DNA from: Agrocybe praecox
Lineage: Eukaryota > Basidiomycota > Agaricomycetes > Agaricales > Agrocybaceae
DNA: 64,000 nt
Assembly (NCBI GenBank): GCA_964017145.1
Contig: OZ024844.1
Coordinates: forward strand, 3,534,001-3,598,000
Direction: 5' to 3'
Below, one piece after another: positions 26,022 through 37,852 of this stretch. Made by a program: the position numbers and the translations under genes. The notes beneath the pieces are model-generated. The model was given only the letters and a program-made list of their open reading frames with translations. It had not been told where the DNA came from and did not search any database. How positions within the stretch are numbered: position 1 is the first letter of the stretch; every line of letters starts with the position of its first letter.

Positions 26022-26029
26022 TATATAAA
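26022..26029 (+). promoter_or_regulatory. TATA box
   Basis: TATATAAA, 136 bases before the start codon at 26165. A clear TATA box fits a strongly or inducibly expressed secreted protein gene, in contrast to the TATA-less housekeeping genes nearby. Confidence 0.65.
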
Positions 26030-26164: not shown

Positions 26165-27640
26165 ATGGTTCAATTCAGATACACCGCTCTTGCCGTCATC
26201 GCCGCCTCTGTCGTTGCTCCTGCCCTCGCCAACAATGTCGGCTACGACAACTCCGTTGATGCGTACGTATTCCCAGATTTTGCTTATGCCTGTGTCCTAA
26301 TCTTCCTACAGTCGTGAATACAATGACCTCGTTGACTTTTTCGAGAGAGACTTCCAAGTGTGAGTAATATGAACACAAATACCTTGGAAATCGAGTACTT
26401 ATATAGTATTTCAGGGACGCCCGTGAATTTGACGAGGAAGTCTTCAGGCGCGATCCTCTCTTCGGCTTCATCAAGAAATGGTGGAACAACCGAAAGGCTA
26501 ACAAGGCTGCTACTGCTACTGGCGGAGACCAGTAAGTATTGTTTTTTATATTTTTGCAATGAACTTCAATAACCGTTAATGTTCCTAGGGGTATGGAAGC
26601 TCGTGAGTACGACGAAGAGCTCATGACCCGCGAGTTCGACGAGTACTTCCGTCGTGAACTGGAGGATCTCATGGAACGCGATCCTCTCTTCGGCATCAAT
26701 CACATCAAGAAGTGGTTCGGAAAGAAGACCCAGCCTGCCCCAGAACAACAACAGTACGCCGAACGTGACTTCGAAGAGGACTTCGAGGCTCGTGATTTTG
26801 AGGAAGAGCAGTTTGAGGCTCGCGAGTTCGAGGAAGCGGAGTTTGAGGCCCGTGAATTTGACGAGGAGCTCGATGCCCGTGAATTCGATGAGGAACTCGA
26901 CGCCCGTGAATTCGAGCTCGAAGAGCGCGACCCATTCCTTGGTTTCAACCACATCAAGAAATGGTTCAGTGGCAAGAAAGCTCAGCCCCAACCTGCTGCT
27001 GACCAATTCGCCGAACGCGACCTCGAGGAACTCGATGCTCGTGACTTAGAAGAGTTGAACGACTTGTTGGAACGCGAACCCTTCCTCGGTTTCAACCACG
27101 TTAAGAAGTGGCTCAGCCGCAAGAAGGGTGCTGCTGCTCAAGCCGGCGCTGATCAATATGCCGACCAGCAACAAGCTCGTGACTTCGAGGAGGATATTGA
27201 AGCCCGCGAACCCGAGTACGAAGAGGTTCTTGAGCGCTACTTCGATGACCTCTACGAGCGAGAACTCAATGACGAACTTGAGGTCGTTGAACGGGAAATT
27301 AGCGATGAGCTCGAACTTGCTGAGCGTGAGGAAGAGGAGACCAGCATCTTCCAACGTGAGGATATTGATGAGATGTTCACTCGTGGATTCGATCTCAAGG
27401 CTTGGTGGAACAACCTCTGGCACCCCAAGAAGAAGCAGGACAACCAAAAGAAGCAGGACAAGAAGGCTACCTCCACTTCGGCTGCTGCTCCTGCTGCCAC
27501 TTCCGCCGCCGCTGCTGAACCCGCTGCTGAAGCTTCGTAAGTTTATGTTTTATCTCGTCAATTGTGCCTCAATCTGATGTTATTGCTGTAGGACTGAGGA
27601 GAAAGAGGCCCGCGAATTCGAGATTGATGAACTTGACTAA
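26165..27640 (+). CDS. secreted acidic/cationic repeat protein
   Basis: Five exons (26165..26262, 26312..26359, 26415..26531, 26589..27536, 27592..27640) encode 419 aa. A signal peptide, 'MVQFRYTALAVIAASVVAPA', ends near 'ALA-NN'. The mature protein alternates acidic spacers with repeated '(D/E)AREF(D/E)EE' units and five cationic, Trp/Phe-rich cores: 'RDPLFGFIKKWWNNRK', 'RDPLFGINHIKKWFGKK', 'RDPFLGFNHIKKWFSGKK', 'REPFLGFNHVKKWLSRKK' and a divergent 'FDLKAWWNNLWHPKKK'. The last four end in, or run into, Lys/Arg pairs, where a Kex2-type protease might cut. The middle three are followed by an Ala/Gln/Pro-rich linker; after the fifth core the tail is Lys/Gln- then Ala/Ser/Thr-rich, ending 'EAREFEIDELD'. 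The layout resembles multi-copy peptide precursors, with acidic parts balancing basic ones. A structural wall or surface protein is the alternative. No known family comes to mind. Confidence 0.85.
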
Positions 27641-35148: not shown

Positions 35149-37852
35149 TTATTTTCGACGCCGCCACTGCACCGCTCCTTTGTCTTTGCATCCACAAGCA
35201 TCACAAAAAGGTACTGCTGCTTCAACATCTTGTCGATAACAAGCAGCCTCCATCACACCGCCCTCTACTCCTGCCCTCTCCAAGTATCTATTCATCTCCT
35301 TGTTCAAACGGCCGAACCGTTCTGGATAGTTGCGCTCGAGATCAATGCCGGCATACAGTTTCCGGTGGTAGAAACAAGGTCCAGGATTCTGACACAGGTC
35401 AATAAGAGGTTCATACCGTCCGGAACGAGGGAGTAGAAATAAGATGAACGCCAAGAGACGATACGTATCGATGTCACTTGCTGTTGTAGCCCTTGTATCG
35501 TTCCGTGTTGTAGGGTCCAGGTCATCTTTCCCATTGTCATCATATTCAACAACGTTGATGGCGGACAAGTCTTCCCACTCGGTCGAATCATCTAAATCCT
35601 CCGTGATTGAAGAGAGAGCTTTCAGAGACCCAGTAACATCGTAGGCAGCCAGTGCTGTCAAGCAATCATACGCAGCAAGGGTGAACAGTCGTGTACTAAA
35701 CGCGTACTCTTTAGAGAGTTCAGAATCTTGGAGGAGGTCGCTAACGTAGTCATCGAATGGAACATCATTCACAAAAATGTTTGGTTTATGCGAGTTGAAC
35801 CCTCTTAAGGCGAGTGGATCGTAGGGCCCGGAGTGTTGCATTGAGAGGAGGGGTACTGGTTTGAATAACGCGAACATTTTACGGAAGCAGAGCCACACGA
35901 GGTCCAAGAATCGGTTTGTAAGGGCGTAGTAGAGTGGAAGGCGAGAAAGGATGACCAGGTCAAGCTGATCCAAGTAGTCTTCTAGTATATCTTTATCTTG
36001 CTTTTGGTGGAAGACTCGATTAGTGAATGCTCCTCAGAACATATGAGACAAACTCACCAGTCGGGGTAAGAATCGAAAGAATGCGGGTATAAATTCGTGA
36101 AACAGTTTGAGGGACTTATCCGTCGTATTAGAGTCATCAGCAAGTTTCTGCAACGAAAATTGCTCCATCTCTGACTGAAGCTCAGGAGTTAGTGGGCAGC
36201 CTGCAGAAAGCTGCTTTGTACTGAAGTTGTAGGGGGTAAGCCTCTGTGGTCCGCCCGGAACTAGGGTAAAATAAAAACGCTTGAACACATGTAATGGAAA
36301 GGTGATCAGTAGAACTCACGAGCAAAAATTCGAAATGCATTGACGAGATGTTTTGATTTGTGCTCTTCAAGGTTGATGTAGAATTTCTTTGAGCGGGCTG
36401 GATCGAGCAAGAAGTCCTCGAAGGATGCATGAAGGAACTTTGCCGTTCCAGCCGAGATAGACATAATTGCATGAATATCACAAAGTGAAACTTCAAGTTC
36501 GCCTTTCTCAAGGGACAGGATACATTCGATATCATCCATGCTTTTGGGTCCACCATCCAATATCATGTAACTGAACGCTTGAAGAGCAGGCTCCGCGTCT
36601 ATCATCGAAGACAATATATGCATATAGAGCGAGTCGAGTTCTGAAAATGGGAGGTTCTTGTTGGAAGGGCGAAGCTTCAAAAGGATGTCCAGCGAGTGGT
36701 CAGGCCGGCGACGGAGGAACTTGACGAATTTGACGACAGTAGCTGCATAGACAAATTGACCAGATGATTTTGCAACGATTTCCCGCATGCTATTTTCCTC
36801 TGGCCATGTTGATGAGAGATGGCGTCTAAATGGATGATCTTTCTTGATTTGTGCAAAAACACTCCGGAGGTACAAATTTATATCCTTGACCGACTGGTAG
36901 TCATTATCTAGCGTAAGACGCGTAAAAAGGCCGCTCATCGAGTCGAAAGTTGATCTAATGTCGAGTTCTGGCCGACTTGCAATAAGAAAAATGAACGGTA
37001 ATTCGAATTGACGTATGCCCGACGCGAGTGTTTGCAGGATGTGGCACTGGGCATCACGATCCAAGCATTCGTCTAACCCATCGATAGCCACCAGAAAGCG
37101 AGGCGCTGAAGAGAGGCTTTTTACAGGACCAACAATGATAGAGCTGAATTGATGCGCCAGAGACCGGGTGAAAAGAAAGTGGTCATTATCCATCACAGAA
37201 AGCATATGATGGCGAATGTCCGGAAAGGATTGATATAGCTGAAAAGCTAACGTTGCGATGAAAGCTTTTACATGATTGCGGCTGGGATCTGATCTCCAGA
37301 AAAAGAAAGACGCGACGCCAGATTCCTCTGAGGTCAATTGTTCTAAGACAGTATGCATGATAGCCGTTTTTCCTGCACCAGCAGCACCGTTAAGCCACAT
37401 CATGGGAAATGTGCTAGTTTTCTCGTCGCAACCATGGACCCAATCGACGATTTTCTCCAAAATCGCAACACGAGTGTTGGCGTGACATTTGGGAGGGTCG
37501 AACTCTGCACCGGAATTGTGAAAGGCGTTAGGAGCTACAGATTCCTTCAGTATATCAAAAGACCCTAACGCCGTATAAGTAAGAGAATTAGGGGACAATA
37601 TGGATAATAGAATTCACCTTTCTGAATCGTCTGGCTAATATGCTGGATAAAATTTCCACCGTAAAAAACAGCATTCTGGTTGAATGACATCATTGGAAAG
37701 CCATTTTCAGGGATGCTCTGAGAAGCTTGAAGGCTGATGTGCTGTGTAACATTGGGCCTGGTCATCATAATTGGTTGATTAAAGCTCAATGCATTGTTTT
37801 CCTGATCCGACCGTGCTGGAAGTTGGGGTATGATTGGGTTCAGGGAAGACAT
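35149..37852 (-). CDS. NACHT-domain NTPase (NLR-like)
   Basis: Four exons (37852..37618, 37564..36320, 36260..36058, 36000..35149) encode 844 aa. The N terminus carries the agaric 'NAVFYGGNFIQHISQ' block. 'AFHNSGAEFDPPKCHANTR' is the typical linker before the NACHT domain. Walker A is 'WLNGAAGAGKTAIMHTV' and Walker B is 'FLVAIDGLDECLDRDAQ', followed by 'IFLIASRPELDI'. These proteins are STAND NTPases, thought to act as fungal innate-immune or heterokaryon-incompatibility sensors. The C-terminal half ('FLHASFEDFLLDPARSKKF' onward) has no visible WD, ankyrin or TPR repeats, so it is the short, repeat-less type. It is divergent from mL54 with 241 bases between. Confidence 0.92.

Follow-up and report, generated by a model that had tools for sequence, protein, structure and literature searches.

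A candidate secreted multi-copy precursor of cationic aromatic peptides in Agrocybe praecox, marked by single arginines in acidic surroundings

A gene on contig C5 of the 59.2 Mb Agrocybe praecox genome (G000) encodes a protein in which acidic stretches alternate with basic, aromatic ones. It raises the question of whether short peptides are cut from this protein and, if so, at which residues. The gene lies at 26165-27640 on the plus strand of a 64,000-nucleotide stretch (C5:3534001-3598000, here "the window") and is composed of five exons, with an ATG at 26165 and a stop codon ending at 27640; the longest single open frame within it covers 315 residues. Its model is supported by P0001, a 419-residue relative with 98% identity over 100% of the query. 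The longest contig carrying P0001 has 1,438 nt, whereas the gene with its introns spans 1,476 nt of genomic DNA; this contig must therefore be a spliced transcript, and this near-identical full-length relative is thus spliced and transcribed. Many other relatives are found on contigs of ~0.9-1.4 kb, barely larger than their coding sequence, which suggests that these are transcripts too. A TATA-like sequence was noticed by eye near 26022-26029. Long antisense open frames run across the gene (26196-27549, minus strand) and are taken as by-products of its codon composition. An Rfam scan of the whole window gave no match at the gathering score, and elsewhere in the window (36309-37613, minus strand) lies an exon of a NACHT/NPHP3_N-type STAND NTPase. 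The features of the gene and its product are as follows.

26165..27640, + strand: whole gene; five exons, 419 aa; pI 4.3 without the signal peptide
26165-26262, 26312-26359, 26415-26531, 26589-27536, 27592-27640, + strand: exons, four introns removed
26165..26230, + strand: signal peptide, residues 1-22, by inspection; conservation 0.81
26231..26451, + strand: acidic spacer 1, residues 23-61, two introns inside; invariant Arg 34, 45, 52, 61
26452..26505, + strand: core 1, residues 62-79; V-F-R-R before, D-P at start
26602..26679, + strand: acidic spacer 2, residues 93-118; invariant Arg 93, 102, 110, 118
26680..26727, + strand: core 2, residues 119-134; M-E-R before, D-P at start
26761..26928, + strand: acidic spacer 3, residues 146-201; repeated (D/E)AREF(D/E)EE; mostly missing in other rows (occupancy 0.38)
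26929..26979, + strand: core 3, residues 202-218; E-E-R before, D-P at start; extra copy, occupancy 0.12
27016..27075, + strand: acidic spacer 4, residues 231-250
27076..27126, + strand: core 4, residues 251-267; L-E-R before, E-P at start; extra copy, occupancy 0.12
27178..27267, + strand: acidic block, residues 285-314; best conserved post-signal part; invariant Arg 285, 294, 304, 312
27385..27435, + strand: core 5, residues 354-370, W-rich, ends HPKKK; M-F-T-R before, no X-Pro
27605..27637, + strand: C-terminal acidic tail, residues 409-419, ends DELD; conservation 0.80

The initial annotation had described a signal peptide followed by acidic parts alternating with five basic cores, three of them close copies, and had seen in this a secreted multi-copy peptide precursor. 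The layout is borne out, the signal peptide being recognisable by inspection and conserved, and the precursor remains the best reading. Cores 2-4 are the close copies, cores 2-5 end in GKK, GKK, RKK, and PKKK, respectively, and the motif [DE]AR[DE]F[DE]E is present five times. Across 51 representatives of the family, 257 acid-free stretches of at least 12 residues with at least two K/R are counted, whereas 100 shuffles give 135 on average and never more than 153, so that the alternating layout is more than chance. Over 15 codons, synonymous differences number 6, 3, and 4 in the three pairs formed by cores 2-4, and non-synonymous ones 3, 6, and 3 (dN 0.09 with dS not computable, 0.18 with dS 0.77, and 0.09 with dS 1.27). 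Cores 2-4 are diverged repeats, and the pattern fits selection on the peptide, over few codons. Pfam identifies no domain in the window protein (DUF7746, at E 0.12, stays below its cut-off), and a sequence search of solved structures returned nothing at E 1; the match of an array paralogue (see below) to an anti-CRISPR structure, at E 0.059, was taken as chance. AlphaFold2, given the window protein and 28 relatives, produced a largely helical model of low confidence (mean pLDDT 52.6, pTM 0.17); for one exon of an array paralogue and 10 relatives it reached pLDDT 42.8 and pTM 0.25. Both models are too weak to be interpreted.

This layout is shared by at least 116 proteins, collected with three queries. 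The window protein retrieves at least 66 at E 0.001 or better, a paralogue exon at least 29 additional ones, and the Clonostachys member P0043 at least 21 new ones among at least 35 matches; these counts are lower bounds, as scoring was confined in each query to the roughly 8,000 candidates with the most words in common. Four members (P0073, P0078, P0083, and P0094) look fragmentary or doubtful. Those sources that are named belong to the Agaricales (Cyclocybe, Psilocybe, Termitomyces, Tephrocybe, Agrocybe, Gymnopilus, Crepidotus, Hebeloma, and Coprinellus) and, outside this order, the ascomycete genus Clonostachys (P0043, P0050, P0056, P0059, P0088, P0096-P0102, P0104, P0107, P0108, and P0112-P0114). 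One Clonostachys member is 51% identical to the array of the window genome over 85 residues. The patchy spread over Agaricales and Clonostachys raises the question of transfer between fungi. The acidic tail is common to the family together with the layout: an [DEANSQ]LD end is found in 47 of 62 representatives, and in 30 of those 47 it is DELD. Of note, this end (residues 409-419, 27605-27637 in the window protein) is very common although the rest of the protein differs greatly between members; ER retention would call for an -EL end.

Exon-by-exon searches of the same genome reveal at least eight paralogous loci, six of them in a tandem array on contig C13 (C13:1124799-1147578, minus strand, loci L015-L018). 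There, starts resembling signal peptides (e.g., MVQITNTLVAAAIIVPAFAAP) and xLD-ending exons take turns, six of each; from these starts and exons, the array is read as six putative tandem genes. Array cores, e.g., HFNIGKVFKTVGKVASNFI, have x-x-A-R at one border and R-[ED] at the opposite one. The two further loci lie at C13:752128 and C6:2405512. An Agrocybe pediades contig likewise carries several members (P0068, P0069, and P0073).

The strictest feature of the family is a single arginine in acidic context, [DE]-L-x-[AE]-R↓[DE] (the arrow marks the candidate cut). Conservation was counted in those 16 of the 29 aligned rows that are less than 80% identical, in columns with at least 60% letters; these columns cover 22 of the 31 post-signal Arg. 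Seventeen of these 22 columns are 100% Arg, and mean conservation is 0.83 for Arg versus 0.57 for Lys, 0.61 for Glu, and 0.50 for Asp. In Arg columns with an acid on both sides, Lys occupies 0 of 249 cells (234 Arg, 15 others), while Arg occupies 16 of 116 cells in the core Lys columns. The same division is seen in the 51 representatives, with an R:K ratio of 430:21 in spacers versus 315:612 in cores. This set comprises 53 sequences at under 60% identity, chosen from 96, less P0073 and P0094, which have fewer than six R[DE]; the filter tilts the set slightly toward R[DE], and it was not applied to a held-out set of 11 representatives drawn from the 21 new proteins, where spacer R:K is 133:3 and core K:R 201:75. 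So sharp a distinction between Arg and Lys speaks against a purely electrostatic role, and a protease requiring Arg at P1 would explain it.

The surroundings of these arginines are also constrained. At 529 Arg-then-acid sites having an acid among the four preceding residues, P5 is E/D in 83%, P4 L/I in 73%, and P2 A/E in 74%, with Glu at P2 in 35%. Glu at P2 is poor for yeast Kex2, and monobasic yapsins or a trypsin-like enzyme would be alternative candidates for cutting after E-R or A-R. Counting D or E as the acid, an acid-context Arg stands at 66% of the N-borders of the 257 stretches (100 shuffles: mean 47, max 57), where KR/RR is found at 4% (mean 10), and an Arg before an acid at 67% of the C-borders (shuffles: mean 48, max 64). 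Per representative, the median is 14 single R-[DE] sites and one KR/RR site. In the window protein itself, only cores 2-4 come after an Arg that has an acid within positions -2 to -4 (LMER, LEER, and LLER); for core 1 (VFRR) and core 5 (MFTR), the nearest Glu is at -5. On the C-side, an Arg before acid is present in one of six stretches, and the cores run into Ala/Gln/Pro linkers.

A second signature, X-Pro, follows the arginines that face a core. It is present after 89 of 190 core-facing Arg versus 4 of 263 spacer-facing Arg in the 51 representatives (Fisher p 3.6e-35, a value that overstates independence, as the family sequences are related), and after 23 of 57 versus 0 of 71 in the 11 held-out ones. 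Taken protein by protein, X-Pro favours the core side in 27 of the 38 proteins having both kinds of Arg and the reverse in none; the 11 ties, among them the Clonostachys member P0043, have no X-Pro at core sites. In the window protein, X-P is found at 3/3 counted core-facing sites, core 1 shows RR then D-P, and core 5 has none. The Pro could alternatively be the first residue of a helix. This reading is somewhat less likely, as the residue preceding the Pro is Glu more often than Asp (63:28, versus 148:162 at spacer sites); Glu is a poor helix cap. The core-side X-Pro is as expected for kexin-type cutting followed by dipeptidyl-aminopeptidase trimming, X-A/X-P being given as the signature of Ste13-type dipeptidyl aminopeptidases in the relevant passages of the KEP papers (PMC9769878, PMC6339444).

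The genome contains candidates for each step of such a pathway. Three kexin-like loci possess a P-domain and have Kexin as best PDB match, and one DPPIV_N locus and 31 exon matches to S10 carboxypeptidases are found. Two of the three kexin loci adjoin, ~3.4 kb apart (C13:2727605 and 2731000); a duplication linked to substrate diversification is possible. Three KEX2 genes are likewise reported in C. cinerea and other Agaricomycetes (PMC9769878, in part). The same passages describe three C. cinerea precursors that yielded, in Pichia, peptides apparently ending after a single Arg; they also describe peptides that persisted in the kex knock-outs of that study, and synthetic peptides of its own devoid of antibacterial activity (PMC9769878). 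As to C-terminal amidation of the GKK cores, no PAM match was obtained in the genome, and control genomes were equally silent.

The explanation that we favour, with moderate confidence, is that of a multi-copy secreted precursor releasing cationic aromatic peptides through single-Arg cuts, X-Pro trimming, and a C-side cut; processing of some kind is likely. A kexin-type protease of the secretory pathway would cut after the single acid-set Arg (consensus [DE]-[LI]-x-[AE]-R↓[DE]), and a Ste13-like dipeptidyl aminopeptidase would then take D-P or E-P off the new N-terminus of each core. On the C-side, the cut would fall at the next Arg before an acidic residue, a mark that is clear in the paralogue array, or, in the window subfamily, perhaps at the basic pair near the core end, with a Kex1-like carboxypeptidase trimming the basic residues. 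The window peptides freed in this way would be cationic and aromatic, resembling FLGFNHIKKWFSG(KK) and perhaps retaining a portion of the Ala/Gln/Pro linker, and the acidic spacers would neutralise the cores before cleavage. Cuts, trimming, protease, and peptide action are all inferred. Among the observations that count against this model are the atypical N-borders of cores 1 and 5, the scarcity of C-side Arg before acid in the window protein, the enrichment of basic pairs in its subfamily, and the strong conservation of the acidic block 285-314, which a plain spacer need not show.

The initial annotation had pointed to dibasic ends, and Kex2 might indeed release the cores at Lys/Arg pairs, as in an ordinary KEP, giving short dibasic-ended peptides. 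KK ends cores 2-5 and RR precedes core 1. Of the 54 distinct acid-free stretches in the window subfamily, 39 carry a basic pair beyond residue 9, whereas the fraction in 300 shuffles averages 0.38 and peaks at 0.52; both residues are basic at columns 75/76 in 12 of 13 rows and at 368/369 in 15 of 16. KEX2-type KEPs are furthermore described as common in fungi (PMC6339444, PMC7329392, in part). Most of the details, however, make this reading unlikely. The pair is KR/RR in only 2 of those 54 stretches, and at core N-borders KR/RR is rarer than in shuffles. At columns 69/70 and 133/134, both residues are basic in 7 of 13 and 4 of 16 rows, and of the RR pairs in the window protein only the second Arg is kept (R60 0.08, R61 1.00; R109 0.14, R110 1.00). 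Its two RR, with no KR, delineate three KR/RR fragments; in-silico cutting at every KK gives more but splits each core inside I-K-K-W. In the other subfamilies, a pair is present in 124 of 245 stretches, which is chance (shuffles: mean 0.46, max 0.53). Across the representatives, single R-[DE] sites far outnumber KR/RR sites. Among 62 representatives, at least four KR/RR fragments are obtained in 18, only via KK in 28, and by neither in 16, counting fragments alone without the motif step of the published surveys. The enrichment of pairs therefore stands for the window subfamily, where a KK/RK pair near the core end is a trait of shifting position. The pair may mark cutting on the C-side, or just belong to a peptide that is basic anyway. 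What does not stand is the dibasic end as the strict mark of the family, which falls to the single Arg. In conservation, the cores themselves score below the acidic block (core 1, 0.48; core 2, 0.61; core 5, 0.62; block 285-314, 0.82), and cores 3 and 4 are missing from most aligned rows.

That two acidic parts, the block and the tail, are conserved above the cores could also mean that the protein is never cut and assembles as a block polyampholyte into a wall, mucilage, or adhesive layer, its Arg being kept for specific salt bridges; the largely helical structure model, of low confidence, agrees with this. Salt bridges should nevertheless tolerate some Lys, which is seen in none of the 249 cells, and an uncut protein offers no obvious reason for X-Pro almost only at core-facing Arg. 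The core copy number also differs between relatives, and this proposal is improbable. The same conservation, highest outside the signal peptide at 285-314 and 409-419, would fit acidic fragments (e.g., residues 285-314 or the DELD tail) as the products or functional part, with the basic cores as linkers. Against this, the spacer repeats vary in number and the basic cores recur across subfamilies, flanked by X-Pro in 27 of 38 proteins; we regard this as highly improbable. A last alternative shares with the favoured explanation all its evidence for processing and differs in the fate of the products: instead of acting on other organisms, they would coat the surface in the manner of the Ustilago repellents. 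Rep1 is a precedent for Kex2-released structural peptides, and the window-subfamily cores are aromatic and not helix-amphipathic; the cluster paralogues and the other subfamilies, in contrast, have amphipathic helical cores, more like lytic peptides. A coat is thus conceivable, if rather doubtful.

Among known systems, the nearest kind is that of the KEPs (PMC6339444, PMC7329392, PMC9769878, each in part). Like these, the window protein is probably a secreted multi-copy precursor, for which kexin, Ste13-type, and Kex1-type trimming are expected, in a genome having three kexin loci, as Agaricomycetes have three KEX2 genes (PMC9769878, in part). The KEPs of these passages, however, are repeats between KR/RR/KK(/RK) sites, and here single acid-context Arg are found with an alternation of acidic and basic parts; the formal KEP rule could be reached only through KK sites whose cutting would also split the cores. 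In the precursors of spider linear peptides, the PQM is an Arg at -1 with a Glu at -2 to -4, the iPQM is its mirror image, and the acid is thought to mask the core (PMC9788040, PMC6832493, in part). The acidic spacers, the cationic cores, and, at three of the five window cores, a presumed cleavage site whose Arg has Glu within -2 to -4 resemble the PQM, and the Arg then Glu/Asp on the C-side of array paralogues resembles the iPQM, a mirrored mark that the window cores lack. In contrast, the PQM passages of these two papers contain no X-Pro trimming, and a comparison of the window protein with the spider family PF08025 gave no match. An array paralogue does reach 43.6 bits against PF08025 (cut-off 25), only when summed over repeats, and the unrelated family EURL also passes its own cut-off there. 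The likeness to spider precursors has apparently arisen by convergence, with no demonstrable common ancestry.

The yeast alpha-factor precursor shares with the window protein a signal peptide and a Leu at P4, together with the kexin cut before an acidic residue and the dipeptidyl-aminopeptidase trimming that are proposed here. It differs in its dibasic KR site, in having X-Ala and not X-Pro dipeptides, and in its pheromone product. The candidalysin precursor Ece1 and the Ustilago repellent Rep1, likened here by description, are fungal kexin-processed precursors of amphipathic peptides with KR sites. Dikaritins (ustiloxin-type RiPPs) also derive from repeat precursors in the secretory pathway; a dikaritin precursor was ruled out, since none of the 17 UstYa/DUF3328 matches in the genome is on contig C5 (window) or C13 (array). 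The statement in the initial annotation that no described fungal family has this pattern agrees with searches of open-licence papers, in which none was found, although supplementary tables on KEPs may list members as such.

The role of the peptides may differ between subfamilies. Outside the window subfamily, the helical moment of 146 distinct cores exceeds that of their shuffles (mean z 1.37, 47% above 1.64), while the same cores at a 160-degree strand angle give a mean z of -0.15 (8%) and 258 spacers one of 0.34 (9% above 1.64). In the window subfamily, 30 distinct cores show no helical amphipathicity (mean z -0.28; 0/30 above 1.64), and segmental (head-tail) amphipathicity was rejected as well (mean z 0.78, 3% above 1.64). 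Arg hydrophobicity was set to -1.8 in the 30-core, 146-core, and segmental tests, and to another value in the remaining amphipathicity tests. Amphipathic cores, as first proposed for this gene, are therefore found in its relatives, including many paralogues of its own genome, and not in its own subfamily. The window-subfamily cores are short, aromatic, and Lys-rich, and their peptides may have a different function, e.g., binding a surface or polymer. Spider antimicrobial peptides are the top-ranking Pfam family for an array paralogue, but none of the individual stretches is significant, which makes this a hint at most. Most likely, the peptides would be active at membranes or surfaces, whether those of other organisms or the fungus's own, which in the case of the window cores is a guess.

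Taken together, the family is probably a real, widespread, and apparently undescribed variant of fungal multi-copy precursors, in which a single acid-flanked Arg stands where KEPs have KR/RR. A bolder version, which we consider somewhat less probable than its negation, is that Agaricales and Clonostachys possess unrecognised cationic-peptide-array precursors that have converged on the logic of spider venom precursors, with core-masking acidic spacers, monobasic acid-flanked Arg sites replacing KR/RR and read by a diversified kexin paralogue, and tandem arrays yielding many lytic peptides per mushroom, and that dibasic-only surveys have missed them. Two surveys of fungal repeat precursors are described as cutting in silico at dibasic sites only (PMC6339444, PMC7329392, in part). 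If the single-Arg code is true, mushrooms and Clonostachys make a class of ribosomal peptides that has mostly escaped notice, and the recognition motif stated here makes it searchable and testable. The family would also show that peptide precursors of fungi and spiders can converge, and would provide candidate substrates to account for why Agaricomycetes keep three KEX2 genes (PMC9769878, in part). For activity tests, the C13 array, with its typical amphipathic cores, is a better first target than the window gene. Elsewhere on C13, the exon at C13:752128-753438 (L019) has an acidic, Arg-rich start followed by a very long Lys/Gly/Val/Ser repeat, unlike the other members seen.
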